In this document: one piece after another, positions 3,597 to 60,738 of the stretch
How positions within the stretch are numbered: position 1 is the stretch's first letter
Layout: each line of letters begins with the position of its first letter
Assembly (NCBI RefSeq): GCF_020166105.1
Contig: NZ_JAIUJY010000002.1
Coordinates: 62,001-126,000 of the forward strand
Direction of reading: 5' to 3'
Origin: Blastococcus sp. LR1
GTDB lineage: Bacteria > Actinomycetota > Actinomycetes > Mycobacteriales > Geodermatophilaceae
Length of the DNA stretch: 64,000 nucleotides
Made by a program: the position numbers and the translations under genes
Notes under the pieces: generated by a model
What the model saw: the letters and a program-made list of their open reading frames with translations, nothing else
The model's database searches: none
What the model was told of the DNA's origin: nothing

Positions 3597-4256
3597 TCAG
3601 GCGTGCGAGAGCGAGCGGGCCCAGCGGTCGCCGGCCCACTGCAGGGCCTGGACGACGACGAGCAGCAGCACGACGGTCGCCAGGGTGATGTCAGTGCGGA
3701 ACTGCTGGTAGCCGAAGCGGATGGCGAAGTCGCCCAGTCCCCCGCCGCCGACCGCACCGGCCATGGCCGAGTAGCTGATCAGCGCGACGACGGTGACGGT
3801 GACCCCCGCGACCAGCGACGGAAGGGCCTCCGGCAGCAGCACGGTGCGGACGACGTCACGGCGCCGGGCGCCCATCGACAGCGCCGCCTCGACCTTGCCC
3901 CCGGCGACCTCGCGGAGGCTGGTCTCCACCAGCCGGGCGAGGAACGGGATCGCGCCGATGGTCAGCGGCACGATCGCGGCGGTGGAGCCGATCGTCGTCC
4001 CCACGATTCCTCGGGTGACCGGGGCGACCAGGACCAGCAGGATGATGAACGGCAGGGCGCGGCCGAGGTTGACGACCAGACCCAGGAGCCGGTTCAGGAG
4101 GGGCCGGGGAGCGAGCCCGGCCGGGGCGGTGACGGTGAGCAGCACGCCCAGCGGGATGCCGAGGAGCACGGTCAGCAGGGCCGCGATCCCCACCATGTAG
4201 AGGGTCTCCCCGGTGGCGTCGAGCAGCTGCGGATAGATGCGGTTCCAGTCGCTCAT
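3597..4256 (-). CDS. metI: Methionine ABC transporter permease MetI
   Basis: A 219-residue permease of the MetNIQ transporter with about five transmembrane helices. The EAA-type loop that contacts the ATPase is visible as EAALSMGARRRDVVRTVLLPEALPS. The ATG at 4256 overlaps the metN stop as ATGA, so the two are probably translationally coupled. metQ begins about 57 nt downstream. Confidence 0.92.
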   Translation of the reverse strand: MSDWNRIYPQLLDATGETLYMVGIAALLTVLLGIPLGVLLTVTAPAGLAPRPLLNRLLGLVVNLGRALPFIILLVLVAPVTRGIVGTTIGSTAAIVPLTIGAIPFLARLVETSLREVAGGKVEAALSMGARRRDVVRTVLLPEALPSLVAGVTVTVVALISYSAMAGAVGGGGLGDFAIRFGYQQFRTDITLATVVLLLVVVQALQWAGDRWARSLSHA

Positions 4257-36734: not shown

Positions 36735-37202
36735 TCAGCCGTCGACGTAGCGGTCCCGCTCGACGACGAACTGGCCGGTCGCGGTGTTGGACTCGATGAA
36801 CTCCGGCAGCATCGGGATCCGCACGGTCACGACCACGCACACGGAGAACTCCTCCCCCGGCGCCAGCGTGGGCTGATAGCTCCCGGCCGCGTCGCAGTCG
36901 GCACCGGCCGGCGCGTACGCCAGCCGCATGTCGGTGACCTCCACCGACTGGTCCTCCATCGCCAGCTGCGCCGCCCGCAGCGCACGCTGCTGCCCCGTCG
37001 CCACGTCCGGCGCGGTGCCCATCGCCCGGCCGGCCTCCCGCGCCGCGGCCTGCGAGGCGAACACCCCGCGCTGCACCGCCGAGAACCCGGCGATGATGTA
37101 GACCAGCGGCACGAACACCACCAGCGCGATGAAGACGAACTCCACCAGCGCCGATCCGGTCTCGTCCGCGATCATCCCGAGCCGCCGCCGCAACCAGGTC
37201 AC
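36735..37202 (-). CDS. TadE-family pilus assembly protein
   Basis: 155 residues. The TadE-like start is ETGSALVEFVFIALVVFVP: a short basic segment, a conserved Glu and a hydrophobic helix, as in pilin-like proteins processed by a prepilin peptidase. The rest is exported. It is last in the Tad operon and its ATG overlaps the stop of the previous gene. Likely a minor pilin of the Tad/Flp pilus. Confidence 0.8.
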   Translation of the reverse strand: MTWLRRRLGMIADETGSALVEFVFIALVVFVPLVYIIAGFSAVQRGVFASQAAAREAGRAMGTAPDVATGQQRALRAAQLAMEDQSVEVTDMRLAYAPAGADCDAAGSYQPTLAPGEEFSVCVVVTVRIPMLPEFIESNTATGQFVVERDRYVDG

Positions 37203-37642
37203 GAGCCCTCCTTGAGAGCCCGGCCGGTGACCTCCAGCGGCAGCAGGTTCCCCAGCGCCGCCAGCAGCGAGGGCACCGAGCCCGAGCAGCGCACGACGAC
37301 CACCGTCGACCCACTGGGGTCCGGCTCCTCGACCGACGTGCAGTCGAGCCCCTGCGCCGTCTGCACCGAGGTCGCGCGGGCGACGACCTGCACGGTGCGG
37401 TCGGCGCCGATCGAGGAGTCGATGTCGGCGTTCGCCGCGTACCGGGCGCCGTCCTGCGCGCTGGCGGTGACGACGTTCCGCACGTGCACGTAGACCGCCA
37501 CCTGCAGCACCGCCATCAGCAGCGCGACGATCAGCATCGAGACCATCACGAAGTCGACGACGGCACTCCCCCGCTCCGAGCGAGCGCCCTCGTCCCCCGC
37601 CGGATCCGCCCCGGCGGCGGGAACGTGCAGGGCGGCCGTCAT
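37199..37642 (-). CDS. TadE/TadF-like minor pilin
   Basis: 147 residues with the TadE-type helix ERGSAVVDFVMVSMLIVALL followed by a globular domain containing two Cys that may pair. Overlaps both its neighbours by four bases. With the previous protein it makes the usual pair of minor pilins. Confidence 0.78.
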   Translation of the reverse strand: MTAALHVPAAGADPAGDEGARSERGSAVVDFVMVSMLIVALLMAVLQVAVYVHVRNVVTASAQDGARYAANADIDSSIGADRTVQVVARATSVQTAQGLDCTSVEEPDPSGSTVVVVRCSGSVPSLLAALGNLLPLEVTGRALKEGS

Positions 37643-37836
37643 CCGCGGGTGGTGACCGAGTTCAGCGCGTTCTGCACCGCGTTCACGATGGCGTCCTGGA
37701 ACACCCCCAGGATGGCGAGCACCAGGGCCGCGGTCATGACCGTGACCATGACCCAGCCGGGGACGTCCCCGCGCTCGGGGTCCTCCCCGCGGATCCGGTC
37801 CACGAGGGCGAGAAGGGTGCTCGGAACGCGACGCAT
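37639..37836 (-). CDS. Flp-like pilin candidate (65 aa)
   Basis: A 65-residue protein with one hydrophobic helix (GDVPGWVMVTVMTAALVLAIL) after a charged N-terminus, and a short C-terminal tail (NAVQNALNSVTTRG). It occupies the position of the Flp major pilin in actinobacterial Tad loci. The usual G/xxxxEY processing site is not clear. ATG 37836 is the start with the compact, pilin-like product. Confidence 0.6.
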   Translation of the reverse strand: MRRVPSTLLALVDRIRGEDPERGDVPGWVMVTVMTAALVLAILGVFQDAIVNAVQNALNSVTTRG

Positions 37837-37865
37837 GGCGTCGTCCTTTCTCCAGGTCCGCCGGC

Positions 37866-38807
37866 TCATTGCGCCAGCGAGACGATGCTGATCAGCCCCG
37901 GGAACAGGGCGAAGAGAACGGTGACCGGCAGCACCAGGAAGACGACCGGCACCATCATGGCGATCTCCTTGCGGCCGCCGGCCTCGAGCAGCCGGCGCTT
38001 GCCGGCCTCCCGGACGTCGGCGGCCTGGGCGCGCAGCACCTCGGCCAGCGGGGTGCCGCGCTCGATGGCCACGAGCAGGCCGTCGATGAAGCGGGCCAGC
38101 GGCTCCAGCGAGGTGCGGTCGGCGACGTGCTGCAGCGCGTCGACCAGGGGTACCCCGGCCCGCGCCCGACCGAGTGCCGCACCCAGCTCGCGGGCCAGCT
38201 CGCCGCCCGACAGCCGGGTGACCCGGGCGATCGCCGCCGCGGGGCTCTCCCCCGCCGTCACCGCCAGGGCCAGCAGCTCGGCGACCACCGGGAACTCGGC
38301 GAGCAGCAGCTCCTCGCGCCGGTTGACCTGCTGGGTGAGCCACCAGTCCCGGCCGAGCACGCCACCGACGAGGCCGGAGACGCAGAGCATCCCGGCCGTC
38401 AGCACGTTGACGTTCCCGGCGGCGATCGAGCCGACGGTCGCGACGACGGCGGTGCCGAGCAGCCCGACCCCGCCCCAGATGACCTGCTCGATGCGCAAGT
38501 CCTCGACCGTCAGATCACCGCCGAGGGCGTCCAGGCGACGGCGCACCGCGGCCCGGCCCCCGACGAAGCGGTCGACGATGCGCGCGCCGTTGCTGATCGA
38601 CGGGCCGACGATCCGGCGGACGGCGGTGAGCATCCCGGGCTCGGTCGCGGTGCCCAGCAGCCGCGACGGCGGTGGGGTGTCGTGGACGTAGGGCGCGAGC
38701 CGGTCGACCAGCCGCACCGCGCGGAACGGCGGCGCGTACGTCAGGACGAGCAGCAGACCGGTGGCCGCGAGGAGCCCGATCAGCATGCCGAGCAGGCCGG
38801 CGCTCAC
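37866..38807 (-). CDS. tadC: Tad secretion inner-membrane protein TadC
   Basis: 313 residues with helices near both termini and a T2SF-type cytosolic domain (EFPVVAELLALAVTAGESPAAAIARV and an RKEIAMMVPVVFLVLPVTVLFALFPG end). GTG 38807 overlaps the tadB stop. It forms the membrane platform for pilus assembly together with TadB. Confidence 0.87.
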   Translation of the reverse strand: MSAGLLGMLIGLLAATGLLLVLTYAPPFRAVRLVDRLAPYVHDTPPPSRLLGTATEPGMLTAVRRIVGPSISNGARIVDRFVGGRAAVRRRLDALGGDLTVEDLRIEQVIWGGVGLLGTAVVATVGSIAAGNVNVLTAGMLCVSGLVGGVLGRDWWLTQQVNRREELLLAEFPVVAELLALAVTAGESPAAAIARVTRLSGGELARELGAALGRARAGVPLVDALQHVADRTSLEPLARFIDGLLVAIERGTPLAEVLRAQAADVREAGKRRLLEAGGRKEIAMMVPVVFLVLPVTVLFALFPGLISIVSLAQ

Positions 38808-39667
38808 TGGAGCACCCGCACGTCCTCGGGCAGTCGCCCGATCCGCAGCATCAGCCGGTAGGCCACCAGGCACACCGCGCCGCCGCCGAGCAGGATCGCG
38901 GTGCCCGTCGCCGAGTCGTAGGCGGCGATCGTCGTCGACTGGGTGGCGAGCAGCAGCAGCACGACCCACGGGGCGGCGACCGCCAGCCGCGCGGCCGAGA
39001 CCACCCAGCCCTGCCGGGTCTCCAGTTCAGCGCGCGCCCGCGCGTCCTCCCGCAGGAAGGTCGCCAGCGTCCGCAGCACCCGCCCGAGGTCGGTGCCGCC
39101 GACCTCGCGGGCCACCCGCAGCGTCTCCACGATGCGGTCCCCGACAGGGTCGGCGAGGTCGCTCTTGAGCCGGTCGAGGCACGGCCCGAACCGGCCGCTC
39201 GAGCGGTAGTCGGAGGCGAACCGGGCGAACGGCGGCCGCAGCACCTCGGGCCCACGGGTGGAGAGCGCGCCGAGCGCCTCGGGCAGCGAGAGGCCGGCTC
39301 GCACCGCCGAGGCCAGGTTGTCGACGACCTCCGGCCACACCTCGCGCAGGTCGGCGCGGCGCTTGCCGGCCATCCGGCGGACCTGCAGATAGGGCAGGAA
39401 GAAGCCGAAGATCCCGAACACCAGGCTCACGGTCACCGTGGCGGTGGTGAGCAGGACGACGACGGTCACGAGCAGCGCGGCGCCCACCTGGAGCGCGAGC
39501 AGCTGGGCGCCGTTGATGCCGGTCAGCCCGGCGGCGTGCAGCAGTTCCTGCCGCTTTCCGGGACGGCGGGGATCGGTGCGCGGCTTCGGCGCCCGGGTGC
39601 CGCTGCGCCAGATCAGCAGCAGTCCGACGCCGAGCAGCAGCCCGAGGAACGCGCCGGACTCCGTCAC
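38804..39667 (-). CDS. tadB: Tad secretion inner-membrane protein TadB
   Basis: 287 residues with a T2SF domain: WPEVVDNLASAVRAGLSLPEAL and DRIVETLRVAREVGGTDLGRVLRTL. Several hydrophobic helices lie at both ends. GTG 39667 overlaps the tadA stop as GTGA. Partner of TadC. Confidence 0.87.
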   Translation of the reverse strand: MTESGAFLGLLLGVGLLLIWRSGTRAPKPRTDPRRPGKRQELLHAAGLTGINGAQLLALQVGAALLVTVVVLLTTATVTVSLVFGIFGFFLPYLQVRRMAGKRRADLREVWPEVVDNLASAVRAGLSLPEALGALSTRGPEVLRPPFARFASDYRSSGRFGPCLDRLKSDLADPVGDRIVETLRVAREVGGTDLGRVLRTLATFLREDARARAELETRQGWVVSAARLAVAAPWVVLLLLATQSTTIAAYDSATGTAILLGGGAVCLVAYRLMLRIGRLPEDVRVLQ

Positions 39668-40893
39668 ACCGACCCGCCGAGCAGGGCCGGCAGGTCGAAG
39701 CCCGCCGCGGCGAACCGATCGGCGTGCGGCGGATAGCCCGAGGCCCGGACCAGGCGGCCCTCGCGGCTGGTGAAGACGTCGGCGGTCTCGATTACGCCGT
39801 TCTCGGCCCGCCCCGGCAACGCGACGATCTCGCGCACCCGGCGGCGCCCGTCGGCGTCGGTGCCGACGTGCACGACGAGGTCGACGCTCGAGGCGACGGT
39901 GGGGACGACGAACGACGTCCCGATGTTCTCCCCGGCCAGCAGCGGCAGGGTGCACATCTTCACCACGGCCTCGCGGGCGCTGTTCGCGTGCAGCGTGCAC
40001 ATGCCGGGCAGCCCGGAGTTCAGCGCGATGAGCAGGTCCAGGCACTCCTCCTGCCGCACCTCGCCCACCACGATGCGGGAGGGCCGCATGCGCAGCGCCT
40101 CCTTCACCAGCCGGCGCAGCGGGATCTCCCCGGCGCCCTCGAGGTTGGGCTGGCGGGTCTGCATGGAGACGACGTCGGGCAGCGGGACGCGCAGTTCGAA
40201 GACCTCCTCGCAGGTGATGACCCGCTCGCGGGCCGGCACCGAGGCGCAGAGGCAGTTCAGCAGCGTCGTCTTGCCGGCCTGGGTGCCGCCGGAGACGAGG
40301 ATGTTCAGGCCCGAGGCGACCGCGGCCTCGAGGAAGCGGGCCGCCTGGGCGGTGATCGTGTCGAGCGCGACCAGTTCGTCGAGCGAGTGCGCCTGCAGCA
40401 CGAACTTCCGGATGTTGACCGCCATGTGGCGCCGGGTGATGTCGGGGATGACGACGTGGAGCCGTGAGCCGTCGGGCATCATCGCGTCGACGAACGGGGT
40501 CGACATGTCGATGCGTCGACCCGAGGTGCGCAGCATCCGCTCCACCAGGTCGGCGAGCTCCCCCGGCGCGAGGATCGTCGTCGTGAGTTCGCTGCGGCCG
40601 CGCTTGGCGATGAACACCCGGCCGGGCTCGTTGACCCAGATCTCCTCGATCTCGGGGTCGTCGAGGTAGCGCTGCAGGGGCCCGAAGCCGGCCACGCGGT
40701 CCAGCACGTCGCGGACGACGGACTCGACGTCGCCGATCGGGGGCAGCGCGGAGCTCAGCGAGCGCTCGGAGTAGTCGGCGACGACGTCGCGCACCAGCAG
40801 CCGCACCGGGCCCGGGTCCAGGAACGGATCGAGCCCACGCCGGCGGATCAGCTCGCGGACCTCACCGTCCACGACATCCAGAGCAGTCGGCAC
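39664..40893 (-). CDS. tadA: Tad pilus ATPase TadA (CpaF family)
   Basis: 409 residues. Walker A SGGTQAGKTT at 201-210, His box and Walker B-like segment PSRIVVGEVRQEECLDLL are characteristic of the secretion ATPase superfamily. It drives pilus polymerisation at the inner membrane. First gene of the operon tadA-tadB-tadC-flp-tadE-tadE-like, all overlapping or close. No tadZ, tadG or prepilin peptidase is present here, so these must be elsewhere. Confidence 0.92.
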   Translation of the reverse strand: MPTALDVVDGEVRELIRRRGLDPFLDPGPVRLLVRDVVADYSERSLSSALPPIGDVESVVRDVLDRVAGFGPLQRYLDDPEIEEIWVNEPGRVFIAKRGRSELTTTILAPGELADLVERMLRTSGRRIDMSTPFVDAMMPDGSRLHVVIPDITRRHMAVNIRKFVLQAHSLDELVALDTITAQAARFLEAAVASGLNILVSGGTQAGKTTLLNCLCASVPARERVITCEEVFELRVPLPDVVSMQTRQPNLEGAGEIPLRRLVKEALRMRPSRIVVGEVRQEECLDLLIALNSGLPGMCTLHANSAREAVVKMCTLPLLAGENIGTSFVVPTVASSVDLVVHVGTDADGRRRVREIVALPGRAENGVIETADVFTSREGRLVRASGYPPHADRFAAAGFDLPALLGGSV

Positions 40894-49508: not shown

Positions 49509-49805
49509 ATGGCGAATGTCAACGTCACCTACCAGCAGATGGAAGAAGCGGCCGGTCGGCTGACCAACGGGCGCACCGAGATCGACGGCATGCTGGGGCA
49601 GCTCCAGAGCCTCGTCGAGCAGCTCGTCGCCGACGGCTACGTCACGGACAGCTCCAGCCAGGCCTTCCGGTCCTCCTACGAGGAGTTCACGCTCGGCGCC
49701 AAGAAGACCATCGAGGGTCTCGACGGCATGGCCTCCTACCTGAACCAGGCCGCCGCGACCTTCCGCGACGCCGACGCCCAGCTGTCCAGCGCGCTCGGTC
49801 GCTGA
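49509..49805 (+). CDS. WXG100-family (EsxA-like) type VII secretion substrate
   Basis: 98 residues, two helices joined by a turn, as in WXG100 proteins. The central turn normally holds W-x-G; here the region reads LVADGYVTDSSSQAF, so the Trp is replaced by Tyr (GYVTDSSS). The second helix contains TLGAKKTIEGLDGMASYLNQA. No C-terminal YxxxD/E motif is seen. It is convergent with and 72 nt from the EssC-type operon, and is its likely substrate. Confidence 0.85.
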   Translation: MANVNVTYQQMEEAAGRLTNGRTEIDGMLGQLQSLVEQLVADGYVTDSSSQAFRSSYEEFTLGAKKTIEGLDGMASYLNQAAATFRDADAQLSSALGR

Positions 49806-49821
49806 CCACGCCGCATCCCCA

Positions 49822-49855
49822 CTGAGGCCGCCTCGCTGCTGCGAGGCGGCCTCAG
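49822..49855. terminator. Bidirectional terminator between WXG100 and EssC-operon genes
   Basis: A perfect 15-bp stem CTGAGGCCGCCTCGC, loop TGCT, and exact complement. Separates convergent genes, 17 nt beyond the WXG100 stop. Confidence 0.9.
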
Positions 49856-49876
49856 TCGCGTCCGGGTCAGGGCCCG

Positions 49877-50215
49877 TCAGCGCCGGGCAGCCGACTCCGC
49901 GGCGGGGACGCCCGAGTCGCGGATCAGCTGGAGGGCCACGCGGCGCATACGGAGCGAGTAGCGCGAGACGCCCGCGGCCGCGATAGGGCACACGGCGAGC
50001 ACGACCGCACCGGTGATCGCCGCGCCGATCGTGAAGGTGCTGCCATCTGTGGCGACCCCCGCGAGAAGCAGCACCAGGCCCAGGCCCACTCCGAGCCCGG
50101 AGACCACCGCGCGGACCCGGATCGTCCGCCGGGTGGCCCGGTGGAGAGCCGAGACGGCAGCGCTGAAGACGGCGGCTACCGAGAGCCCGGGGCGCCGCGC
50201 ACCGGAACTCGTCAC
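49877..50215 (-). CDS. Small two-TM protein at the end of the T7SS-like operon
   Basis: 112 residues with two transmembrane helices (VVSGLGVGLGLVLLLAGVAT and ITGAVVLAVCPIAAAGV) and basic ends. The GTG start overlaps the EssC-type stop as GTGA. It may be a small secretion-complex subunit comparable in size and position to EssA, which is inference only. Confidence 0.6.
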   Translation of the reverse strand: MTSSGARRPGLSVAAVFSAAVSALHRATRRTIRVRAVVSGLGVGLGLVLLLAGVATDGSTFTIGAAITGAVVLAVCPIAAAGVSRYSLRMRRVALQLIRDSGVPAAESAARR

Positions 50216-53200
50216 GGCGTCGGAGGTGCCGGGATCGCGACCGTGAGCAGGGAGCTGTCGCCCAGGTGGAGCAGCCCGCGCCCGGGCTGGACCGGGGTGC
50301 CGATCGCGCCGCGCGGCACCCGCACGCCGATCAGGTCGCCGTCGGTGCTGCCCTGCGGGGAGAGCAGCACGCCCTGCCGCGACTTCTTGGCGTCCACCTG
50401 CCAGCCCGAGAGGCCGGTGCAGATGCTGTCGGCGTTCCCGGCCAGCACCAGGCTGCGGCCGGGGCCCGCATAACCCTTCACGACCTCGCGGAAGACCTCC
50501 GACGCCGGGCAGTCCCGCAGCACGTCGCCGTCGTCGAGCAGCAGCACCAGCGGCAGGTTCGGGTCGGCGTTGAGCAGCTCCTTCCAGCGGTCCGCCGGCG
50601 TCGACGCCTCCTCGATCACCTCGAGCACGCCCTCGCGCCCGGCCAGCCCGCGCAGCGGTGAGGCCTTCGGCGCGCAGACGACGACGGAGGTGCCCTGCCG
50701 GAGCAGCGACTCCGCCATCGCCATCAGGACGCTGCTCTTCCCCGACCGCCCGGGGCCGGCCACCACGAACCCCGAGGAGCCGCTGCCGATCAGGTCCGGG
50801 CCGGTGGCCGTCAGCTCATCGCCCCCGACCCCGACGAGGGCGAAGCCTGCACCGGCCTCGGGCGGCCGCATCTCCCAGGCGGCCTCGAAGGTGATCCGCG
50901 AGGGCAGGACGTCGACCCGGAACGGTCGGGCCGAGCGGGGCACGAGCGCGTCACGGACGTGCGCGGCCTTGGCGATCTCCGCGATGGCGGCCGCCTGGCC
51001 CTGGCCCGACTCGTCCTCCGACAGCAGTGCCACCTGGGTCTCCAGGGTGCCGTCGACGGTGACCGCGCGGCCCGGCGGCATCTGGTCGGGCACCTGCCTG
51101 GTCGGCACACCGATGAGCGGGTAGTCGCCCCGGTCGGCCAGGCGCATGACCAGCTTGTTGTCGGTGAGCGACGCCAGCCGGGAGGTGCCCAGCGACCGGT
51201 CGCCGGTGATCACGACGGAGATCCCGGCGGAGGCGCCCTCGCGGACGATCGCCATGAGGATGTCGGTGAGCCGGCCGCCGTCGACCTCGCCGAGGGTCGG
51301 CGTGTAGCCCTCCCAGCGGTCGAGGAACAGCAGGATGTGCGGCAGCCGCTCCTCGGTGGGCGCCGACCGGCGCTGCTCGGCGATGTCGGCGTAACCACTC
51401 TCGGCCAGCACCTGCTGCCGGTGCTCCAGCTCGCGCTTCAGCCGGTCGAGCAGCCGGGCGGCGCGCTCGGTCTGCGTCCGGGTGACGACCGCGCCGCACT
51501 GCGGCAGGTCGGCCAGGGGCAGCAGCGCACCGTTGCCGCAGTCGAGCGCGAAGAGGTGCACGTCGTTGGTCGAGCAGCGCGCGCCGGCCGAGCCGGCCAG
51601 CGTGCGCAGCAACTGGGAGCGGCCGCTCTTCGGCGAGCCGATGACCAGGAGGTGCCCGTCGGTGGCCGGGTCGAAGGCGGCCACCTGCTGTTCCTGCAGC
51701 GCGGGCAGGTCGCGCAGACCGAAGGGCAGCCGGGCCGACGACGCGGCGCCGGCCGCGGGGGCGTCGAGCTCGGAGACCAGCACGCGGGAGGACAACGCCT
51801 CCAGCCACGGACTGCGCTGGGCCGGCACGTCCTCCGCGACGGCCGCGCCGCGCACCGCCTCGACCAGCACGGAGAGGTCGGTGATCTCGACGTCGGACTG
51901 ACGGGTCGCCGTCTTCGGCTTCTGGGGGGCCGCGTATCCGACCTGGTGCCATCCCAGGGGGACGACGAACGGCACCGCGGCGGCGACTGCGCCCTGCCCG
52001 GGGCGGCGGCCCCCGATCCGGCCGGCCTGGAACGGGACCAGTGCGCCGTGCCCGAGCCGGGCGAAGCCGCGGCCGGGGGCGGACTTGGGGAGGCGGGCGG
52101 CGTCGGGGGCGTCGAGCACGTCGCTGCTGTCGGCACCGTCGGTGACCCGCAGCGAGATGCGCAGGTTGGTGTTGGCCCTGATCTCGGGCGACACCACCCC
52201 GCTGGGCCGCTGGGTGGCCAGGATGAGGTGGATGCCGAGCGACCGGCCCCGCTGGGCGATGTTGACCAGACCGGTCACGAAGTCGGGCAGCTCCCGGGCC
52301 ATCGAGGCGAACTCGTCGATGACGATGAGCAGCCGCGGGAGCGGTGGGCGGCCGGGCTCGCGGGCCTGCAGGTCGATGTAGTCGTCGATGTCCTTGACGC
52401 CGGCCCGTGCGAGCCAGTGCTCGCGGTACTTCAGCTCGGCACCGAGAGAGGTGAGCGCCCGCTCGACCAGGTGCGCGTCGAGGTCGGTGACCATGCCGAC
52501 GGTGTGCGGGAGGTGGACGCAGTCCTTGAACGCGCTGCCGCCCTTGTAGTCGACCAGCACGAAGTTCAGCGCGTCCGGCCGGTTCGCCACCGCCAGCGAC
52601 GCGATCATCGTCTGCAGCAGTTCGGACTTGCCGGCGCCGGTGGTGCCCGCGATCAGGCCGTGCGGACCGTCGGTGCGCAGGTCGAGGCTGAACGGGCCGT
52701 GCAGCCCGGAGCCGACCACGAGGCGGGTGGTCCGCCCCTCCATCTGCCAGCGGGCGCGGATGCCGTCGACGCTGGGCGGCTCCATGCCGAGCACGTCGAG
52801 CAGCCGCACGCTGTCGGGCAGGACGGCGTCGTCCTCCTCCAGGCTGACGTCGCGCAGCGGCGCCAGCGCCCGGGCCGCGCGCTCGGCGAGCTCGGCGGAG
52901 ATCGGCTCGGCGAGCACCGCCGGCACCGGGTCGTGGCCGCTGCGCCGGACGACGAGCTGGGCCTCCTCCGCCGGGTCGAACACGGCGGTGGCCGTGGCCG
53001 CCTCGGGCAGGAACCGCTCCTCCTCGTCGGCGCAGATGGCGTAGACGCCGACCGCCGGCCCGTCCTGCAGCACCTGGGCCAGCCCTGGGGTCGCGCGCAG
53101 CGGGCGGTAGCCGTGGACGACGAGGACCTGCGCGGGGAACGACTCGGCCTGCAGGCGACTGCCGCTGCCGGCCGCCTCCCGGCGGGCCTTGATCAGTGCG

Positions 53201-54588
53201 GTGAGCTCCCCGACCCGGGCGGTCACCGTCTCCGGGTCGTTGCCGACGAAGGCGACCGGCCCTTCGCCGTCGGCCGCGCGCAGGTGCGGCAGCCAGCGGA
53301 CCCAGTTCCAGTCGGTGCGCCCGCGCGGCGCGAGCACGGTGAGCGCGAGGTCGCGCGTCGGGTGGTGCACCGCGAGCTGGAGGACCACCCACCGCAGCAG
53401 CCCGGCCAGCGGTTCGGCCGGACCGGCCAGGCCCACGACCCCGGCCTCGCGCAGCGGGACGACCGCGGGCACCGCCCGCACGACGCGCTGCTCCGGTGGC
53501 TCGTCGCTGCCCGAGCGATCGGTCACCACGACCCGCGCCGGCAGGTCCGCCGACCCCAGCCGCAGGTCGAGGGCGTCGGGGTCGGTGCGGCGCCGTTCCC
53601 ACAGCCGCCGGCCCGGCAGCACGGCGGTGAGCAACGCGCTGCCCGGATCGGGGTGGGCGTCCCGACGACGGAGCGTCTCCTCGGCCACCGCGGTCTCGAT
53701 CCGCTCGTGCGCGCGGGCGAGGTCCTGCTCGTACTCCTCGCGGGCGCGACGGTTCTCGCGCGCGCTGTGCCGGCGATCGGCCACGGTGTTGCTGATCATC
53801 ATCACCGGGCTGGCGATGGCGAACATGAGGTAGATCGGCGAGTTCAGCACGGTCGCCAGGACGATGCCGATGACCAGCGGCGCGATGATCATGACCATCG
53901 GGAACCGGCGCGGTTCGCGCGCCTGCGGCTCCTTGGGCAGCTGGATGCGCGCCTCCCGGGTGGAGGGCAGCAGACGCGGGGCGCGCACGAAGGCCCGCGT
54001 GCCCGGGGCCATCGGCTCGATCGCGGCGTCGGAGACCGCTGCCGGGCCGATGACCAGTTGGGTGTCGCCGAGCTGCACGATCTGCCCGGGCGCCACCTCC
54101 ACGCCGTCGTCGTCCTCGGGCACGGGCTCGCCCTCGAGCGTGGTGCCGTTGGCCGAGCCGAGGTCGCGCAGGGTCGCGCCGTCGGCGGTGACGCGGAGCA
54201 GGGCGTGCCGGCGCGACATGGACCGGTCGGCGAACCCGAAGGCACTGCTGCGGCCGAGCTCGTGGTCGCCCATCGGCAACTCGGCGACCAGCCCGCTGCT
54301 GGGCCCGCTGAGCACTCGCAGCTGCCAGCCGCGGGTGGGCGGCCCGGCGGGCGCCGCCAGGGCGGCCGCCTCGGACAGGTGCACCACGCTGCCGTCGACG
54401 AGGGCGCTCTCCCCCACGGGCAGGTCGTCCTCGAGCCGCTCGCCGCCGATCCAGAGCCCCTCGGCGGGCATCCCGGAGACCCGGCTCAGCTCCGCGCAGA
54501 CGCGGCTGACCGGAAGGTCGTCGTCGACGTCGAGGGCGACGTCGAGCAGCGTGCCGTCGACCTCCCCGACGCTCACCTGGACGCGCAC
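50212..54588 (-). CDS. EssC/EccC-type FtsK-SpoIIIE ATPase with N-terminal ubiquitin-like and FHA domains
   Basis: 1458 residues. Residues 1-75 look ubiquitin-like (MRVQVSVGEVDGTLLDVALD..., as in EsaB/YukD). Residues about 88-180 are an FHA domain (GRSSAFGFADRSMSRRHALL, DLGSANGTTLEGEPV). Two helices follow near 230-275, then three ATPase domains: D1 with Walker A GTTGAGKSE (about 648) and Walker B LLIVIDEFASM, D2 with GSPKSGRSQ in which the Lys is Arg, and D3 with AGPGRSGKSS. It drives export of WXG100 proteins. UBL, FHA and ATPases on one chain resemble Firmicutes EssC plus EsaB, whereas mycobacterial EccC has no FHA domain. Confidence 0.9.
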   Translation of the reverse strand: MRVQVSVGEVDGTLLDVALDVDDDLPVSRVCAELSRVSGMPAEGLWIGGERLEDDLPVGESALVDGSVVHLSEAAALAAPAGPPTRGWQLRVLSGPSSGLVAELPMGDHELGRSSAFGFADRSMSRRHALLRVTADGATLRDLGSANGTTLEGEPVPEDDDGVEVAPGQIVQLGDTQLVIGPAAVSDAAIEPMAPGTRAFVRAPRLLPSTREARIQLPKEPQAREPRRFPMVMIIAPLVIGIVLATVLNSPIYLMFAIASPVMMISNTVADRRHSARENRRAREEYEQDLARAHERIETAVAEETLRRRDAHPDPGSALLTAVLPGRRLWERRRTDPDALDLRLGSADLPARVVVTDRSGSDEPPEQRVVRAVPAVVPLREAGVVGLAGPAEPLAGLLRWVVLQLAVHHPTRDLALTVLAPRGRTDWNWVRWLPHLRAADGEGPVAFVGNDPETVTARVGELTALIKARREAAGSGSRLQAESFPAQVLVVHGYRPLRATPGLAQVLQDGPAVGVYAICADEEERFLPEAATATAVFDPAEEAQLVVRRSGHDPVPAVLAEPISAELAERAARALAPLRDVSLEEDDAVLPDSVRLLDVLGMEPPSVDGIRARWQMEGRTTRLVVGSGLHGPFSLDLRTDGPHGLIAGTTGAGKSELLQTMIASLAVANRPDALNFVLVDYKGGSAFKDCVHLPHTVGMVTDLDAHLVERALTSLGAELKYREHWLARAGVKDIDDYIDLQAREPGRPPLPRLLIVIDEFASMARELPDFVTGLVNIAQRGRSLGIHLILATQRPSGVVSPEIRANTNLRISLRVTDGADSSDVLDAPDAARLPKSAPGRGFARLGHGALVPFQAGRIGGRRPGQGAVAAAVPFVVPLGWHQVGYAAPQKPKTATRQSDVEITDLSVLVEAVRGAAVAEDVPAQRSPWLEALSSRVLVSELDAPAAGAASSARLPFGLRDLPALQEQQVAAFDPATDGHLLVIGSPKSGRSQLLRTLAGSAGARCSTNDVHLFALDCGNGALLPLADLPQCGAVVTRTQTERAARLLDRLKRELEHRQQVLAESGYADIAEQRRSAPTEERLPHILLFLDRWEGYTPTLGEVDGGRLTDILMAIVREGASAGISVVITGDRSLGTSRLASLTDNKLVMRLADRGDYPLIGVPTRQVPDQMPPGRAVTVDGTLETQVALLSEDESGQGQAAAIAEIAKAAHVRDALVPRSARPFRVDVLPSRITFEAAWEMRPPEAGAGFALVGVGGDELTATGPDLIGSGSSGFVVAGPGRSGKSSVLMAMAESLLRQGTSVVVCAPKASPLRGLAGREGVLEVIEEASTPADRWKELLNADPNLPLVLLLDDGDVLRDCPASEVFREVVKGYAGPGRSLVLAGNADSICTGLSGWQVDAKKSRQGVLLSPQGSTDGDLIGVRVPRGAIGTPVQPGRGLLHLGDSSLLTVAIPAPPTP

Positions 54589-54605
54589 GGCACTTCCTCT
54601 CGGAT

Positions 54606-56630
54606 TCAGCCCGCGCTGTTCTGCAGGACGTCGAAGCTGCGGCTGCGGGCCTCGATCTCACCAAGGCGCACCGACACCGTGCACGCGGACCCCACCGTGT
54701 TGGCGTACGGCACCCGGTCGGTGAACGCGAGGGAGCCCGTGCAGTCGTCCGTGCCGACCTCGAGCTCGCCGCCGAGCTGCTGGAGCAGCAGGCTCGACTG
54801 CGGGTTGCGGCTGCTGAACAGCACGGAGATGTTGTCGGCCTGGTTCGTGCCCCGCCACACCGGCACGACGACCATGCCGACCGGCGCGCTCACCCGTACG
54901 AGGCCGTCGATCTGCACCTCCAGGTCCTCCAGCCGCTGGGCGGCGTAGACCGGGGTCGCGACCAGGCCGTCGAGCGCGTCGCCGGTGGCGGTGCCGGCGT
55001 CGACGAGACGCTGCCGCAGGCCCTGGACGTCGCCGTCGTCCTCCAGCTCGAACGGCGCCGTGTAGCTGGCGGTGACCTCGGAGCCGGCGGGGACGTCGAC
55101 CGGCACCTCCCACCCGCAGGCGGTGACCGGGACGCCGGGCGTCACGTCCCGGACGGCGCCCACCGACCAGGAGACGTCCGGGCACGCCTCGCCATCCTCG
55201 GCGGCGGGGACCGACTCGAACAGCGGGCCGGCCAGCGCGGTCTCGGCCGACCACGTGACGGTCGTCGTCAGAGTTCCGGTCCCGGCGTCGTAGGAGCCCT
55301 CGCGGACGACGGTCAGCCCGGACGGCAGCTGCTCCGACGGGCCGACGACGACGAGCGCCTCAGCGGCGGCGCCGCCCCCTCCACCGACGGAGCCGCGGGG
55401 ATCGTCGGAGCTGTCCGAGCCCGTCAGCGCGACGACACCCACCACCGCGCCCACGGTGACCAGCGAGCCGGCCGCGACCAGCCAGGTGCGGCGGTCGCGC
55501 AGCCAGCCGCGGGGAGCCTCGGGTTCCTCGACGACCGCCGGAGCGGCGTGCGCGGGAGCCTTCCGCTGGCGCAGCTGGGTCTCGGCGGAGGCCAGCTCCC
55601 CGTCGGAGTTCGCGCCCAGCCAGGCTGCCGCCTCACCGGTCGTGGGTGCGGGCAGCTCCGGGGCGGACTCGGCGGCCGCCGCCTTGACGTTGGTGCGGCC
55701 GGGGTCGAGTTCGTCGACCGGCCGGTGCCCGAGGACGCCGAAAGCGGGCGCGGGACCGGTTCCGGCTGCCTTCCAGGTGGTCGGCTCGGGCGCGACGGGC
55801 AGGGCAGGGAGCTCCTGGAGCGCGGGCAGCAGGTCGCGCAGTGAGGCGGCGGCGTCCTCGGCCGTCGGCCGGCGGGCGGGATCCTTCGCGAGCATCGCGT
55901 GCAGCACGGCGTCGAGCTCCCGCGGCAGCCCGGCGATGGGCGGCGGCTCGGCGGTGACGTGCCGGTTGGCGACCGCGTACCCGGTGCCTCCGCCCGCGAA
56001 CGGTGCCCGGCCGGCGAGCAGCTCGTAGAGCAGGACGCCGGTCGCGTAGACGTCGGAGGCCGCGCTGACGGTCTCGGCGGTGAAGATCTCCGGCGCCATG
56101 TAGTCGGGCGTGCCGAGGACCCCGGTCATCCGGACGGTCGTCTCCTGCGCGAGCCGCGCGATGCTGAAGTCACCGAGGCGGACGCCGGGCGGCTCCTCGG
56201 CGGTGAGCAGCACGTTGTCCGGCTTGACGTCGCGGTGCAGCACGCCGCCGGTGTGGGCGGCGGCGAGCGCCTCGAGGACGTCGGCGGTGATCCGTGCGGC
56301 CTCCCCGGGTGCCAGGGTGCCGGCCGTCCGGAGCCGGGCGCGCAGGTCGGCGCCCTGCACCAGGTCCATGACGATGGCGAGGTCCTCGCCCTCGACCACC
56401 AGGTCCCGGACCCGGACCACGTTGGGGTGGACGAGGTCGAGCAGGATCGAGCGCTCCTGGACGAACCTGGTCAGGATCTCCGGGTCGCGGGCGAACTCGG
56501 GGCGCAGCAGTTTCGCCGCGACCTCTTCGCCGGTCCGCTGGTCGACGGCGGCCCACACCGTGCCCATCGCACCGGACCCGAGCTGCCGCTCGAGGACGTA
56601 ACGGCTCCCGAGCGCGCGGGTGGTCTGCAT
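54606..56630 (-). CDS. Transmembrane Ser/Thr protein kinase with extracellular domain
   Basis: 674 residues. Kinase domain 1-270: ATP loop GSGAMGTVWAAVD, Lys in VAAKLL, catalytic HRDVKPDN, the DFG position reads DFS (LGDFSIARL), and YMAPEI. After a Pro/Glu-rich linker one helix (WLVAAGSLVTVGAVVGVVAL, about 380-400) leads to a 270-residue outside domain. Position in the operon and single TM with an outer domain recall EssB/YukC, a kinase-fold protein of type VIIb systems, but this one seems catalytically competent. It may phosphorylate partners such as the FHA ligand of the neighbouring ATPase. Confidence 0.88.
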   Translation of the reverse strand: MQTTRALGSRYVLERQLGSGAMGTVWAAVDQRTGEEVAAKLLRPEFARDPEILTRFVQERSILLDLVHPNVVRVRDLVVEGEDLAIVMDLVQGADLRARLRTAGTLAPGEAARITADVLEALAAAHTGGVLHRDVKPDNVLLTAEEPPGVRLGDFSIARLAQETTVRMTGVLGTPDYMAPEIFTAETVSAASDVYATGVLLYELLAGRAPFAGGGTGYAVANRHVTAEPPPIAGLPRELDAVLHAMLAKDPARRPTAEDAAASLRDLLPALQELPALPVAPEPTTWKAAGTGPAPAFGVLGHRPVDELDPGRTNVKAAAAESAPELPAPTTGEAAAWLGANSDGELASAETQLRQRKAPAHAAPAVVEEPEAPRGWLRDRRTWLVAAGSLVTVGAVVGVVALTGSDSSDDPRGSVGGGGGAAAEALVVVGPSEQLPSGLTVVREGSYDAGTGTLTTTVTWSAETALAGPLFESVPAAEDGEACPDVSWSVGAVRDVTPGVPVTACGWEVPVDVPAGSEVTASYTAPFELEDDGDVQGLRQRLVDAGTATGDALDGLVATPVYAAQRLEDLEVQIDGLVRVSAPVGMVVVPVWRGTNQADNISVLFSSRNPQSSLLLQQLGGELEVGTDDCTGSLAFTDRVPYANTVGSACTVSVRLGEIEARSRSFDVLQNSAG

Positions 56631-56642
56631 GGGTCGGTCCTA

Positions 56643-57923
56643 TCAGCCCTCGCCGTCGGGCAGCACGAACCACGACAGCGCGGGCGCGTCCTGCTCGACG
56701 CCGCGGTCGGCGCCGCGGGTGGTCGCCTGGAGCACGGCCACTCCCTCGTCCGGGAGCGCCTGCTGGTCGGCGAAGGCGAGCTCCGGACCGGCCAGACCTT
56801 CGTCGGCTCCCAGCTGGAGGCCGGCGAGGGCGGCGAGCACGGCCGAGGGCTCGGTGGAGCCGGCGGCGGCGGCCGCGGCGGCCAGCGCGACGACCGCATC
56901 GTGGCTGCGGACGTCGGCGGTCGCGGCCCCCAGGCGACCGAAGCCGTCGGTCCCGGACAGCGACTGGAGGTCGCCGTCCTGGGCGGAGAGGCGGACGGCG
57001 TCCAGGAAGCGGACCACGCCCTGGTCGGTGGAGGCGTCGGTGGCCGCCGGGCCGACGGCGAAGAACTGCCCGGCGGTGGTGGCGCCACCGCTGGAGCCGA
57101 GGTCGGTGAGGCGCGCGGAGAAGGCCGGCGTCAGGGCCGAGGGCCCGAGGACGACCGGTGCGCTGGGCACCCGACCCTGGAGAGCGGCGACCGTCTCGGC
57201 CGAGGTCTCCGCGGAGGCCGACACGAGGACGGCGTCCGCGGCGCCGTCGACGAGCGGCTGGGCGGCGGCCGCGACCTGGCCGGCGAGCGCGTCGCCCGCG
57301 GCGATGGTCACCCGGCGGTCGGGCTGCGCGAGGGCGGCGAAGCCCTCCCCCGTGCCTTCACCGGTGAACGCGACCGGCGCGCGCTGTCCGCGACCGGCCA
57401 GCATCGCGCCGACGACGTCGGCGACCTGCTCGTCGCTCGGGCCGGTGCGCCAGGCGTTGTCGCCGGCCGGGGCGTCGCGGCCGTCGTAGGGCAGCAGAAC
57501 CGCGGTGCTCGCTCCGGCGGCGAGCTCCAGGGCGGGGTCGAGGTGCGCTCCGGCGGAGGCGTAGACGATGCCGGCGACCCCGGCGTCCAGCAGCTGCTGG
57601 GTGGCGGCGACGGCACCCTCCGGAGTGCCGCGATCGTCGATGACCTGCAGCTGGAGCCGGTCCTCGTCTGCGCCGTCGAGCCGGAACTCCGCCACGCGGG
57701 CGCCGGCCGCCGGGGCGGCGAACTCGGCTCCCTCACCGCGTGCGCCGGACCCGGTGACGACGAGGCCCACGCTGAGCCCCGACTCGAGGCCTTCCAGCAC
57801 CGAGAGCTCGACCGTGGGCGCCGGCGCCGGCTCGAAGTTCTCCTCGTCGGGAGCCGCTTCGTCCGACGTGCAACCGCTGGTGACGACCGCGACGGCGGCG
57901 AGGCAGATCACCGATCGCCGCAC
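56643..57923 (-). CDS. Periplasmic-binding-protein type 1-like lipoprotein
   Basis: 426 residues starting at GTG 57923, one base after the upstream stop. Signal VRRSVICLAAVAVVTSGC has lipobox TSGC. The mature part shows the LivJ-like pattern: two Rossmann lobes with RTGPSDEQVADVVGAMLAGR and SSGGATTAGQFFAVGPAATD. It is located between a kinase and a helical secreted protein, with no permease or ABC ATPase near, so it may act as a sensor or surface component rather than an importer part. Confidence 0.78.
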   Translation of the reverse strand: MRRSVICLAAVAVVTSGCTSDEAAPDEENFEPAPAPTVELSVLEGLESGLSVGLVVTGSGARGEGAEFAAPAAGARVAEFRLDGADEDRLQLQVIDDRGTPEGAVAATQQLLDAGVAGIVYASAGAHLDPALELAAGASTAVLLPYDGRDAPAGDNAWRTGPSDEQVADVVGAMLAGRGQRAPVAFTGEGTGEGFAALAQPDRRVTIAAGDALAGQVAAAAQPLVDGAADAVLVSASAETSAETVAALQGRVPSAPVVLGPSALTPAFSARLTDLGSSGGATTAGQFFAVGPAATDASTDQGVVRFLDAVRLSAQDGDLQSLSGTDGFGRLGAATADVRSHDAVVALAAAAAAAGSTEPSAVLAALAGLQLGADEGLAGPELAFADQQALPDEGVAVLQATTRGADRGVEQDAPALSWFVLPDGEG

Positions 57924-57924
57924 G

Positions 57925-60738
57925 TCAGTTCTCCCCACCGATGCGGAAGCAGAAGACCGTGGCCGAGACCGAGCCCTTGGGGAGCTGCTCGGCGAACGGC
58001 TCGAGCCGCTGCGCGGCCTGCAGCGAGCGGGCGAATTGCTGCTGCTCCAGCTGTGCGTCGGCGACCTCTGCCTGCCGGACACCCCGGAAGCTGGCGGCGC
58101 TCTCGCTGGTCTGGGTGACCTGGTCGGTGCGGACGCCGGTCTGCCCGGCGCTGTTCTGGATCACGCCGAGCAGACCGCGGCCCTCGGTCGCCGAGCCCAG
58201 GTCCAGCAGCACCTTCTGCAGCTGGTCCTGCAGCGCCTGCGAGGCATCCGACTGGGACACGGTCGCCAGCGAGATCTGCTCGGCGAGACGTCCGATGGCC
58301 TCCTGCGCGGCGGCGTCGAGCTCCTGCTCGGCGGCGGCCTGCACGGCCTGGAGTCGCTGCGTCTGGACCTCGACGACGACCCGCCCCTGCTCCAGCTGCT
58401 GCGCCGCGGCGGTCGTCAGCTGGGTGCCGATGTCTCCGCCCAGCTCCTCGAGCGAGGCGTCGGCGCCGGTACCGGCTTCCTTGGCCTTGTCACGCGCCTC
58501 GTTCACCGGACCGGCCGCTGCCTTGTCGACGTCGTCGGCGGCCTTGTTGATCAGCCGCTCGAGAGCCCCCTCGGTGTCCTCACGAGCGCAGTAGAGCTGC
58601 TTGAAGCTCTCGTGCAGCGCATTGAGACGCTTGGAAGCCGCCACCGGAGGGACGGCGCAGTTGAGGTCCGACGAGACAGCGGAGTCGTAGAGGGTGGCCA
58701 CTTCGGCCACGAGGGCGTCCAGCTCCGTGCTCAGTTGCGTGGTGATCGCACCATCGACGAGGCCGCTCAGATTTGCGGCCTGAGTCTTCACCGCGGCGAG
58801 GTCCTCTGCCGTGTCGGCCGACTGGTCGGCGGCCTGGATGAGGGAAGTCGCCAGGTCGTCCCAGTCGCTGGACTGCGCCCGCACACGCTCGGCGATCGAG
58901 TCTGCATCGGCACCGCTGACCGCGTCGAGGCTTCCGCAGTCGAGTCCCACGAGCTGCTCGCTCAAGGTGTCAAGCCGCTCCAGTTCGGGGTCGTCGGCGA
59001 GCAGCGTGGAAGCGGGGGCGCAGATCTCCACCGCGAGAGCCTTGCTCTGCGCGATGATCTGAGCATCCGCAGTTACCAGCGCGCCTTGCTGAAGCTCGGC
59101 CTGGTCGGCCAGCTCGGTCAGCGCGGTCGTCCACTCGGTGCTACCAGGCGAGGGCTCGACGGCCCCCAGCAGCGACAGGAGGCCGTCGATCTTGTCGGTG
59201 AGGGGATCGAGAAGGTCGTCGAGACCCTTGAGCGCGCCCCCGCCTTGCGTCTTCATGTTTCCGGCCTTGGCCTGCAGAGCGGCGACTGCACCCTGCAGGC
59301 CGGTGATGCCGTCAAGGACCGCGTCCACCGTGTCGTCCGGGTCGAGCGTGGCGGCGACTGTCGCCCGGTCCGTTCGTACACCCTCGGCGATCGTGTCGAG
59401 CTGCTTACCTGCGCCCATCAGCTTGCAGACCAGCGATTCGCTCCTGTCACCGGCGCACTGCTCGGTGCCGGCCTGCGGATCGATGTCGAAGCCGATGTCC
59501 TCGAGGAGCGTGCCGCGGAGGGCGTCGACGCAGTCGGTCGAGGCGTCGGCCAGTCCGTTCAGCTGGCGGCTCACCGCCGACAGCTGACCGAGCAGCGTCG
59601 AGGAAGGCGCCTCGGCGACGGCCTCGGTGCCACAGCCGACCGGCTGCGTCGGGCCGCTCGCGGGGGTCGGCGAGCCGAAGAACTGGAGAACGCCGCGCAC
59701 GCTCTCGTCGAGTGCGCTGGTCGCGGTGCTGTTGGCCCCCTGAACGGTCGACCCGACCGAGTTGTCGAGCGCCTGCAGGTCGGCGATCAGGGACGCCATC
59801 GAGGAGTCCACCGAGGCGGCGGTCGACCGCAGCGCGCTCGTGGCGGCCGAACCGACCTGGCCGGCGTTGACCGCGAGCGTCTCGCGCACCGTCTGGAGGC
59901 TGTCGGTCACCTGCGCGAGCGTGGCGTTGACGTTGGCGATCAGGCCGATCGTGTGGTTCTCCGACCCCACCATGCGGGAGGAGCCACCGAAGATGTCGCC
60001 GACGAGGCGGGCGACGGAGTCATCGGTGGCCACACCCGGCTGCACGGCCAGGTTGATGGCCGGCAGCTCGAAGTCCTCGGCGTCCTGGACCAGCGTGAAG
60101 GTGGTGCTCGGCTGCAGTCGCGGCGGAGCGAGGATCGAGGCCCACTGGACCGTCGTCGCGTCGTCCTCGGTGGTGATCACGCCGTTCGTGGTGCCCGGCT
60201 CCGTGGCCGCGGCCTGCGGGCGGACCAGCGTCGCGGCGCCGTCGCCGGGGAGGACGGCGCTGGCCACGACGGTCATCGGCGTCGTCACCAGCTCGTAGCT
60301 CTCGCGGGCCACGCCGTTGGCGTCGTACTGGAAGCGCTCCGGGCGGCCGGTCAGGTTCTGGACGGTCACGTTGATCTCGACCCGCCCGTCGGCACCCTCG
60401 ATGTCGGCGAGGTCGGTGCCGACACGGCCGTCGTGCCGCCACGAAGTGGTCACGCGGACCGGGAGATCGCCGGCGTGCTCGGCGGGGTTCAGCGCGGTGG
60501 TGCTGGTGGTCGGGTCCTCCCCGTCCTCGCCGCGGCTCACCAGCGCGGAGGTGAGCCCGGTGACCGCACCGTTCGAGGCGAGGTCGATCGTCACCGCCTG
60601 CAGCGCCCGCCGCGGTGCCTCCTCGGCGAAGACGACCGGCGCCATGACGGCGCCACTCCCGAGCAGCACCACCGCCGCCCCGGCCGTCACCCCCCATCGG
60701 CGTCCGCTACCGGAACCGACCAGGCGTGTGCTGCCCAC
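57925..60738 (-). CDS. Large secreted/anchored helical protein, EsaA-ectodomain-like candidate
   Basis: 937 residues. One N-terminal hydrophobic segment (WGVTAGAAVVLLGSGAVMAPVV, 15-38) is a signal or anchor. A beta-rich region (about 40-230) is followed by about 650 residues of mostly helical, coiled-coil-like sequence rich in Ala, Asp, Gln and Ser, with six or so scattered Cys. No C-terminal TM helices are seen. First gene of the operon. In type VIIb systems EsaA has a long coiled extracellular domain, so a similar role is plausible; the missing TM helices are the main argument against. Confidence 0.65.
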   Translation of the reverse strand: MGSTRLVGSGSGRRWGVTAGAAVVLLGSGAVMAPVVFAEEAPRRALQAVTIDLASNGAVTGLTSALVSRGEDGEDPTTSTTALNPAEHAGDLPVRVTTSWRHDGRVGTDLADIEGADGRVEINVTVQNLTGRPERFQYDANGVARESYELVTTPMTVVASAVLPGDGAATLVRPQAAATEPGTTNGVITTEDDATTVQWASILAPPRLQPSTTFTLVQDAEDFELPAINLAVQPGVATDDSVARLVGDIFGGSSRMVGSENHTIGLIANVNATLAQVTDSLQTVRETLAVNAGQVGSAATSALRSTAASVDSSMASLIADLQALDNSVGSTVQGANSTATSALDESVRGVLQFFGSPTPASGPTQPVGCGTEAVAEAPSSTLLGQLSAVSRQLNGLADASTDCVDALRGTLLEDIGFDIDPQAGTEQCAGDRSESLVCKLMGAGKQLDTIAEGVRTDRATVAATLDPDDTVDAVLDGITGLQGAVAALQAKAGNMKTQGGGALKGLDDLLDPLTDKIDGLLSLLGAVEPSPGSTEWTTALTELADQAELQQGALVTADAQIIAQSKALAVEICAPASTLLADDPELERLDTLSEQLVGLDCGSLDAVSGADADSIAERVRAQSSDWDDLATSLIQAADQSADTAEDLAAVKTQAANLSGLVDGAITTQLSTELDALVAEVATLYDSAVSSDLNCAVPPVAASKRLNALHESFKQLYCAREDTEGALERLINKAADDVDKAAAGPVNEARDKAKEAGTGADASLEELGGDIGTQLTTAAAQQLEQGRVVVEVQTQRLQAVQAAAEQELDAAAQEAIGRLAEQISLATVSQSDASQALQDQLQKVLLDLGSATEGRGLLGVIQNSAGQTGVRTDQVTQTSESAASFRGVRQAEVADAQLEQQQFARSLQAAQRLEPFAEQLPKGSVSATVFCFRIGGEN

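Follow-up and report, generated by a model that had tools for sequence, protein, structure and literature searches.

A putative non-ESX type VII locus of Blastococcus sp. LR1 with a ubiquitin-like and FHA-bearing motor and a variably present kinase cassette

Results

A four-gene operon faces a WXG100 gene

We analysed 64,000 nucleotides of Blastococcus sp. LR1 (contig NZ_JAIUJY010000002.1, positions 62,001 to 126,000; hereafter the window), in which a candidate type VII secretion system (T7SS) locus lies at 49509 to 60738. The LR1 genome comprises 4.02 Mb on 10 contigs. Four genes run on the minus strand from 60738 to 50212 with intergenic gaps of <20 bases and encode, in this order, a 937-aa protein, a lipoprotein, a membrane kinase (these three are called the cassette below) and a 1458-aa ATPase, the motor; a WXG100 gene converges on them from the plus strand (Table 1). 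The operon and its convergent partner, as described in an initial annotation from sequence alone, are real. Genes were called with a home-made GC-position caller; hence, gene starts are approximate. For the lipoprotein, the most likely start is 57923 (426 aa, with a lipobox) rather than that of the longer open frame. Fetched loci are given L-numbers and sampled genomes G-numbers, G000 being LR1 itself.

The initial annotation also placed a small protein with two membrane helices at the end of the operon. This gene is present (112 aa), but its product corresponds to just the C-terminal half of a 237-249-aa variable-region protein in three relatives (L021, L027 and L032), where the full-length membrane gene lies at the end of the variable region. 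Hence, we read it as a truncated remnant and not as a conserved component.

Table 1. Genes and gene groups placed in the window
Feature	Position	Strand	Basis or remark
937-aa secreted protein (predicted)	57925..60738	-	signal-like N-terminus, hydropathy, profile search
Lipoprotein, relative of type I periplasmic binding proteins (amino-acid/amide family)	56643..57923	-	lipobox by eye, alignment, PDB profile
Membrane Ser/Thr kinase, PknA/PknB type, one membrane helix (384-402)	54606..56630	-	catalytic residues, PDB profile
Motor: ubiquitin-like domain (about 1-75), FHA (about 91-182), two membrane helices, FtsK/EssC-class ATPase domains	50212..54588	-	
Truncated remnant of a variable-substrate-region membrane gene, 112 aa	49877..50215	-	overlaps motor gene end
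WXG100 protein, 98 aa	49509..49805	+	PF06013, 65 bits
Tad pilus genes (TadE-like, pilin-like, TadC, TadB, CpaF)	36735..40872	-	Pfam for 4/6; other 2 unmatched

The motor joins ubiquitin-like and FHA domains to an EssC/EccC-class ATPase

In a Pfam scan, the FtsK domains of the motor score 194 bits and its FHA domain 40 bits (residues 112-174). The top-scoring models are those of EssC (TIGR03928, 551 bits) and EccC (TIGR03924, 414 bits), both under their curated cut-offs of 778 and 509, respectively, and the best PDB matches are EccC and YukB. Residues 1-75 are ubiquitin-like (UBL): a profile built from 32 of the 64 N-termini listed reaches ubiquitin-fold PDB chains (best E 4.3e-9), and EccD1 at E 0.036. 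Of these N-termini, 8/32 are hit by the Pfam model for YukD and 5/32 by that for ubiquitin, at E up to 0.1, and single-sequence Pfam matches to the motor UBL are weak and under cut-off. The FHA score and the UBL profile bear out the fusion of both modules to the ATPase that had been noticed at first.

The Walker A and B motifs of ATPase domain D1 are intact, and D2 has GR instead of GK across all Blastococcus rows. The FHA residues that bind phosphothreonine (pThr), GR/SxxH/NG, are intact in 10/10 aligned cassette-bearing rows (7 from Blastococcus, with two genomes counted twice and one row a stub without ATPase) and likewise in the motor of Rothia.

The LR1 genome has two FtsK/SpoIIIE-domain loci, the window motor and an FtsK-sized one, and a single EssC/EccC-class motor. 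No EccB was found in it by a search that was positive in all 7 other genomes or records. Five LR1 subtilases match the mycosin model TIGR03921, none of them over cut-off and none in the window, and were not taken as mycosins on these scores. The non-ESX layout proposed initially is supported, as to EccB for the whole genome; EccD and EccE had no genome-wide search.

The motor falls in a large actinobacterial group outside EccC and Bacillota EssC

We placed the motor in an unrooted D1 tree of 79 motors, whose references include no T7SSc-j motor. The 8 EccC rows form a group of their own (100/100) that excludes the window motor, and a further branch (99/96) separates 68 actinobacterial rows, including the window, from the EccC rows plus two Bacillota references. 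These two EssC-class rows (one annotated as EssC) group with the actinobacterial locus L121 (99/94); the placement of these rows and of L121 is less sure, because the tree program flags their sequence composition. L121 (370-7255) is itself an EssC-type motor without FHA, and its neighbours are two small WXG-like genes as well as a small gene and another that, as judged by eye, look ubiquitin-like and PP2C-like, respectively.

The 68-row group spans Actinomadura, Nocardioides, Acidimicrobiia, Rothia, Curtobacterium, Streptomyces and Blastococcus together with motors of a phylum sample. In that sample, 72/396 genomes, LR1 included, have a motor match. From it, 45 motor loci were fetched, mostly chosen for matches that reach the N-terminus; 38 (from 36 genomes) fall in the window group, 6 with EccC, and one is L121. 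UBL-FHA fusion-group motors are therefore present in at least 36/396 sampled actinobacterial genomes. Hence, the motor D1 belongs to a large, supported actinobacterial UBL-FHA-FtsK group outside both EccC and Bacillota EssC. As D1 falls outside EccC and the genome lacks EccB, the initial suggestion of a distinct type VII subclass holds, whereas the label 'type VIIb-like' is not supported, since D1 lies outside both Bacillota EssC-class references as well.

Within the group, a 19-row subgroup (100/99) contains all Blastococcus rows and the cassette-bearing motors other than that of Rothia, which is placed elsewhere despite its cassette proteins. Hence, the cassette is old or was transferred.

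The cassette encodes an active-looking kinase, a binding-protein relative and a fast-changing protein

In the kinase, the catalytic residues K40, HRD (132-134) and D154 are present, in keeping with the intact HRD and Lys reported at first, and DFG reads DFS in the window. An alignment of 6 kinases shows no variation at K40, HRD or D154, and one of 19 shows none at HRD or D154. In the PDB, the kinase matches PknA and PknB best. By its sequence this is a Hanks-type Ser/Thr kinase of the PknA/PknB type that looks active, and the phospho-signalling initially raised is supported as a possibility. PADLOC matches were mostly to the kinase domain, and the idea of a phage-defence kinase was dropped on that account.

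The kinase outer domain has homologues of its own. The linker between the kinase domain and the membrane (275-383) is loosely conserved (mean 0.58, versus 0.82 in the kinase domain), yet six of its columns are common to at least 19/20 kinases, including Asp309, Gly311 and Thr313. Juxtamembrane Thr313 is identical in 20/20 kinases and Thr351 in 18/20, 16 of these 20 being closely related or, in one case, slightly less so. That threonines are conserved in a weakly conserved linker, combined with an intact FHA domain, suggests that the former dock on the latter.

The lipoprotein profile has 4nqr as its best PDB match (E 2.3e-5) and reaches 7 distinct PDB sequences at E up to 0.01, with matches to type I periplasmic binding proteins over part of the length. 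We assign the lipoprotein, on this profile similarity, as a relative of that group (amino-acid/amide family).

In the 937-aa protein, an N-terminal region (about 45-240) and the C-terminal end are conserved, and the coiled-coil middle between them changes fast. The protein has no match in Pfam or NCBIfam, and all 60 PDB profile matches listed fall in the coiled-coil part. By hydropathy it has no membrane helix beyond the signal-like N-terminus, and none at the C-terminus. Its ratio of non-synonymous to synonymous substitution rates (dN/dS) is 0.48 and 0.66 in two pairs, versus 0.13-0.21 for the motor, kinase and lipoprotein of the same pairs, a pace that would suit a protein exposed at the surface.

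The initial annotation had put the 937-aa protein in the role of EsaA and the kinase in that of EssB. Neither assignment was supported by profile comparison with one Limosilactobacillus protein each: the 937-aa family aligns with EsaA at an hhalign probability of 0.2% and the kinase family with EssB at 0.1%. The apparent topology of the 937-aa protein is also unlike that of EsaA. An acquired or converged Bacillota type VIIb (Ess) system, with the kinase as EssB and the 937-aa protein as EsaA, would account for the similar gene count, the FHA domain on the motor and the protein sizes. We nonetheless regard it as extremely improbable, given the lack of any sequence or profile relation to the one reference each, the differing apparent topology, the PknA/PknB-type kinase, the many strains that lack the cassette, and a motor that stands apart from the two Bacillota references (flagged for composition as above).

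The cassette is variably present beside a constant motor and WXG100 gene

Strong matches to the 937-aa protein number 59 among database proteins. They occur in 5/150 genomes of an order sample, 4/394 of a class sample and 1/396 of the phylum sample, LR1 being counted each time. Weak matches to its N-terminal part were not counted as the same system; these came from 10 f36 genomes of the phylum sample, among which the 4 searched with the motor profile gave only an FtsK-sized match (623-833), and from 11 class-sample genomes (8 of f105), among which G662 (f105) has its motor on another contig.

The order 937-aa protein, lipoprotein, kinase and ATPase is kept in two Nocardioides-type genomes, G876 (L147) and G847 (L149). 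A convergent WXG100 gene follows the motor in G876 and was not found in the fetched stretches of G847. G005 is split, with the 937-aa protein and lipoprotein genes on one contig and those for the kinase, motor and convergent WXG100 on another; in G114 the three cassette genes share a contig and motors lie on others. In G883 (L148) the cassette is kept beside a 502-aa UBL-FHA stub (3685-5193) without FtsK domains. Since the cassette-bearing class-sample genomes G876, G847 and G883 also carry EccB, both kinds of system can coexist.

Plasmid p1 of Rothia terrae encodes homologues of the 937-aa protein (675 bits) and the lipoprotein (150 bits), a motor and then an Rhs gene. Next to these, a divergent gene encodes a kinase whose outer domain is homologous (86 bits); no WXG100 gene was found in the fetched stretch. 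It is a cassette-bearing copy on an actinobacterial plasmid. Separately, an EssC-class motor locus (L183) lies on a plasmid of Enterococcus sp. PLM3 that is typed as conjugative.

Fourteen Blastococcus-type genomes have the motor: the window, 12 Blastococcus loci and G140. Five of them have the cassette (the window, L021, L026, L027 and L032). In the other nine, which keep the motor and WXG100 gene, the three-gene cassette is absent at the site; G140, for example, has no kinase outer domain beside its motor. The 937-aa protein was not found genome-wide in any of the nine, the lipoprotein and kinase being sought at the site only (order-sample genome G016 is the genome of L022). On the motor tree, at least 3 changes of cassette state are required, whose direction the tree does not give; losses are the simpler reading, because the outgroups used carry the cassette. 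Hence, motor and WXG100 form the constant part of the locus in Blastococcus, with the cassette present or absent beside it, and the three genes in 'EsaA/EssB' positions look accessory rather than counterparts of the EssB/EsaA core.

This distribution is what would be seen if motor and WXG100 were a complete minimal exporter and the cassette a separate, co-travelling surface sensor or adhesin with no action on the motor. Cassette-less motors keep their D1 Walker residues (8 aligned rows) and evolve under purifying selection, at a dN/dS of 0.18-0.28 in three pairs; L025 has a substrate module without cassette, and G883 a cassette with a stub that lacks the ATPase. We consider such independence unlikely, however. 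The cassette-motor order is kept outside the family, and the G883 stub, a single case, retains exactly UBL-FHA, which speaks for coupling of kinase and FHA. Moreover, two cassette-bearing pairs have a motor dN/dS of 0.13-0.14; hence, selection on cassette-less motors is retained and somewhat relaxed. In one cassette-less pair (L035/L036) the first 185 motor codons have a dN/dS of 0.51. The D3 Walker lysine is replaced by Arg in 5/8 cassette-less and 0/7 cassette-bearing rows of Blastococcus, but L147 and L149, which carry the cassette, have the replacement too.

WXG100 genes and substrate modules accompany the motor

A convergent WXG100 gene is present in 12/12 Blastococcus loci and in L158, L160 and L161. 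Between motor and WXG100 gene, L021, L025, L026 and L032 have a module in which a ~98-aa partner and a 390-490-aa protein are encoded together with other small genes. The two large module proteins scanned, from the genomes of L021 and L026, match T7SS_signal at 21 bits (cut-off 27) and 41 bits, respectively. Outside the window, LR1 has three T7SS_signal loci, two over cut-off, as candidate substrates; the C5 locus (under cut-off) and the C2 locus have module-like neighbours. The third locus of this type, L198 (1341-3899), has 457-, 260- and 139-aa genes in series. A ~200-aa family recurs in substrate modules (L019 9021-9632, L197 6758-7336, L026 14374-14967, L079 and L081) and is possibly an immunity protein or chaperone; its L019 copy has no Pfam match.

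Tad pilus genes lie near some motor loci

The Tad genes of the window lie 8.6 kb from the WXG100 gene and are adjoined by a series encoding a GH6 glycosidase, a GlxA-like galactose oxidase and a family-2 glycosyltransferase (31628-36317), a row that resembles the Streptomyces cslZ-glxA-cslA set. Tad genes also occur in the fetched stretch of 5/12 Blastococcus loci, 5/6 related non-Blastococcus loci (4 of them Actinomadura) and 4/38 phylum-sample loci of the motor group, versus 0/6 EccC loci. In L110 (8374-13469) and L067 (1202-6252), both of family f30, tadC ends at an FHA-type motor gene of the same orientation; hence, the motor seems to be inside a Tad operon there. These neighbourhoods would fit a motor that works for the Tad pilus, or is regulated together with it, instead of exporting toxins. 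We think this very unlikely, because in 34/38 sampled loci the fetched 6-20 kb contain no Tad gene, the related loci are not independent, and T7SS_signal-type genes lie beside several window-group motors.

A sensor-kinase cassette may control the motor by phosphorylation

We judge it somewhat more probable than the opposite that this is a non-ESX type VII locus in which a UBL and a pThr-type FHA domain are fused to an EssC/EccC-class motor and a sensor-kinase cassette exerts phospho-control. The lipoprotein and the 937-aa protein would sense a ligand, the state of the wall or a neighbour outside the membrane, and the kinase outer domain would relay this signal. The kinase may then phosphorylate its own juxtamembrane Thr313 and Thr351, which could dock on the motor FHA domain. 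The docked motor would export WXG100 and T7SS_signal-type proteins, whose genes lie beside it in some strains or in other parts of the genome.

Several observations weigh against this interpretation. The FHA residues are equally intact in 8/8 aligned cassette-less Blastococcus motors (G140 lies outside the alignment); hence, the FHA domain need not serve the cassette kinase. The FHA motif is degenerate, as aligned, in Actinomadura and Streptomyces-type motors, and the Rothia row is only loosely aligned at Thr313. Finally, the few strong 937-aa matches in the samples make the cassette uncommon.

A bolder form of phospho-control, which we advance tentatively and hold to be doubtful as a whole, is a ligand-gated type VII system: the lipoprotein and long protein would feed a PknB-type kinase whose phosphothreonines dock the UBL-FHA-ATPase, the cassette would be a plug-in that was repeatedly lost or moved, also plasmid-borne with an Rhs gene, and the fused UBL would be the 'missing' ubiquitin-like part of T7SSd. 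Cassette presence or absence beside a kept motor is a natural experiment in Blastococcus, so phospho-control of type VII secretion can be tested in soil bacteria.

Comparison with known systems

Garrett, Higginson and Palmer 2024 (PMC11217815) described T7SSc-j with kinases and FHA motors, proposed phosphorylation and drew a comparison with the type VI secretion system (T6SS). The present locus is a T7SSc-j-like variant with a fused UBL and an added binding protein, kinases and FHA motors having already been described. T7SSd is the only new actinobacterial type in that work, and as far as a search of open-licence PMC papers shows, non-ESX type VII in Actinomycetota has been published only as T7SSd. 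The titles and abstract starts searched there gave no other description of the UBL-FHA-motor fusion or of the cassette. In the sections consulted, Iyer et al. 2006 (PMC1779556) describe an actinobacterial YukD-like domain fused to a 12-helix membrane protein, and Zhang et al. 2012 (PMC3482391) do not mention a UBL-motor fusion of this kind.

T7SSd and T7SSe, as described, share with the locus a pThr-motif FHA motor, WXG100, a membrane Ser/Thr kinase, a very large secreted protein and a nearby Rhs-type gene. In T7SSd no ubiquitin-like protein was reported; TsdI (1654 aa) has several Ig-like domains and a C-terminal helix, the outer part of TsdD is largely helical, and TsdH is a single-helix protein (PMC11217815). 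In T7SSe the ubiquitin-like protein is separate (PMC11217815). Here, in contrast, the motor itself carries the UBL, the operon has an additional binding-protein lipoprotein and no TsdH that could be seen, the 937-aa coiled-coil protein has no C-terminal helix by hydropathy, and many strains lack the cassette. The locus might still be a member of T7SSd, with the 937-aa protein a shortened TsdI and the kinase TsdD: phylum, FHA motor, active membrane kinase and large secreted protein agree, and Rhs genes lie near both the O. uli T7SSd (PMC11217815) and the Rothia plasmid copy. Given the fused UBL and added lipoprotein, differences that go by description, and the missing helix and TsdH-like gene, membership seems to us rather improbable, though not far-fetched. 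Garrett et al. called the plasmid occurrence of newer T7SS variants unclear (PMC11217815), and Rothia p1 provides one such occurrence for the cassette.

With T7SSa/ESX (EccBCDE-MycP), the locus shares the motor class and WXG100, whereas its genome lacks EccB, its motor carries FHA and UBL, and its D1 falls outside EccC. With T7SSb (Ess and Yuk; EsaA-EssA-EsaB-EssB-EssC), it shares an FHA domain on the motor, a single operon-linked WXG100 and a kinase-domain membrane protein. It differs in that this kinase has catalytic residues where T7SSb has a pseudokinase, the UBL is fused to the motor, a relation to EsaA or EssB was not found by sequence, and the motor does not group with the Bacillota references.

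In the Bacillota systems T7SSg and T7SSh, Tad genes adjoin motors without FHA, chance and function not being told apart (PMC11217815). Tad genes are likewise near some window-group motor loci, in a different phylum and with FHA on the motor. Lastly, the locus shares with the T6SS threonine-phosphorylation pathway the proposed logic of a membrane kinase and FHA docking, by analogy only and in an unrelated machine. The kinase and FHA protein of that pathway are named PpkA and Fha.

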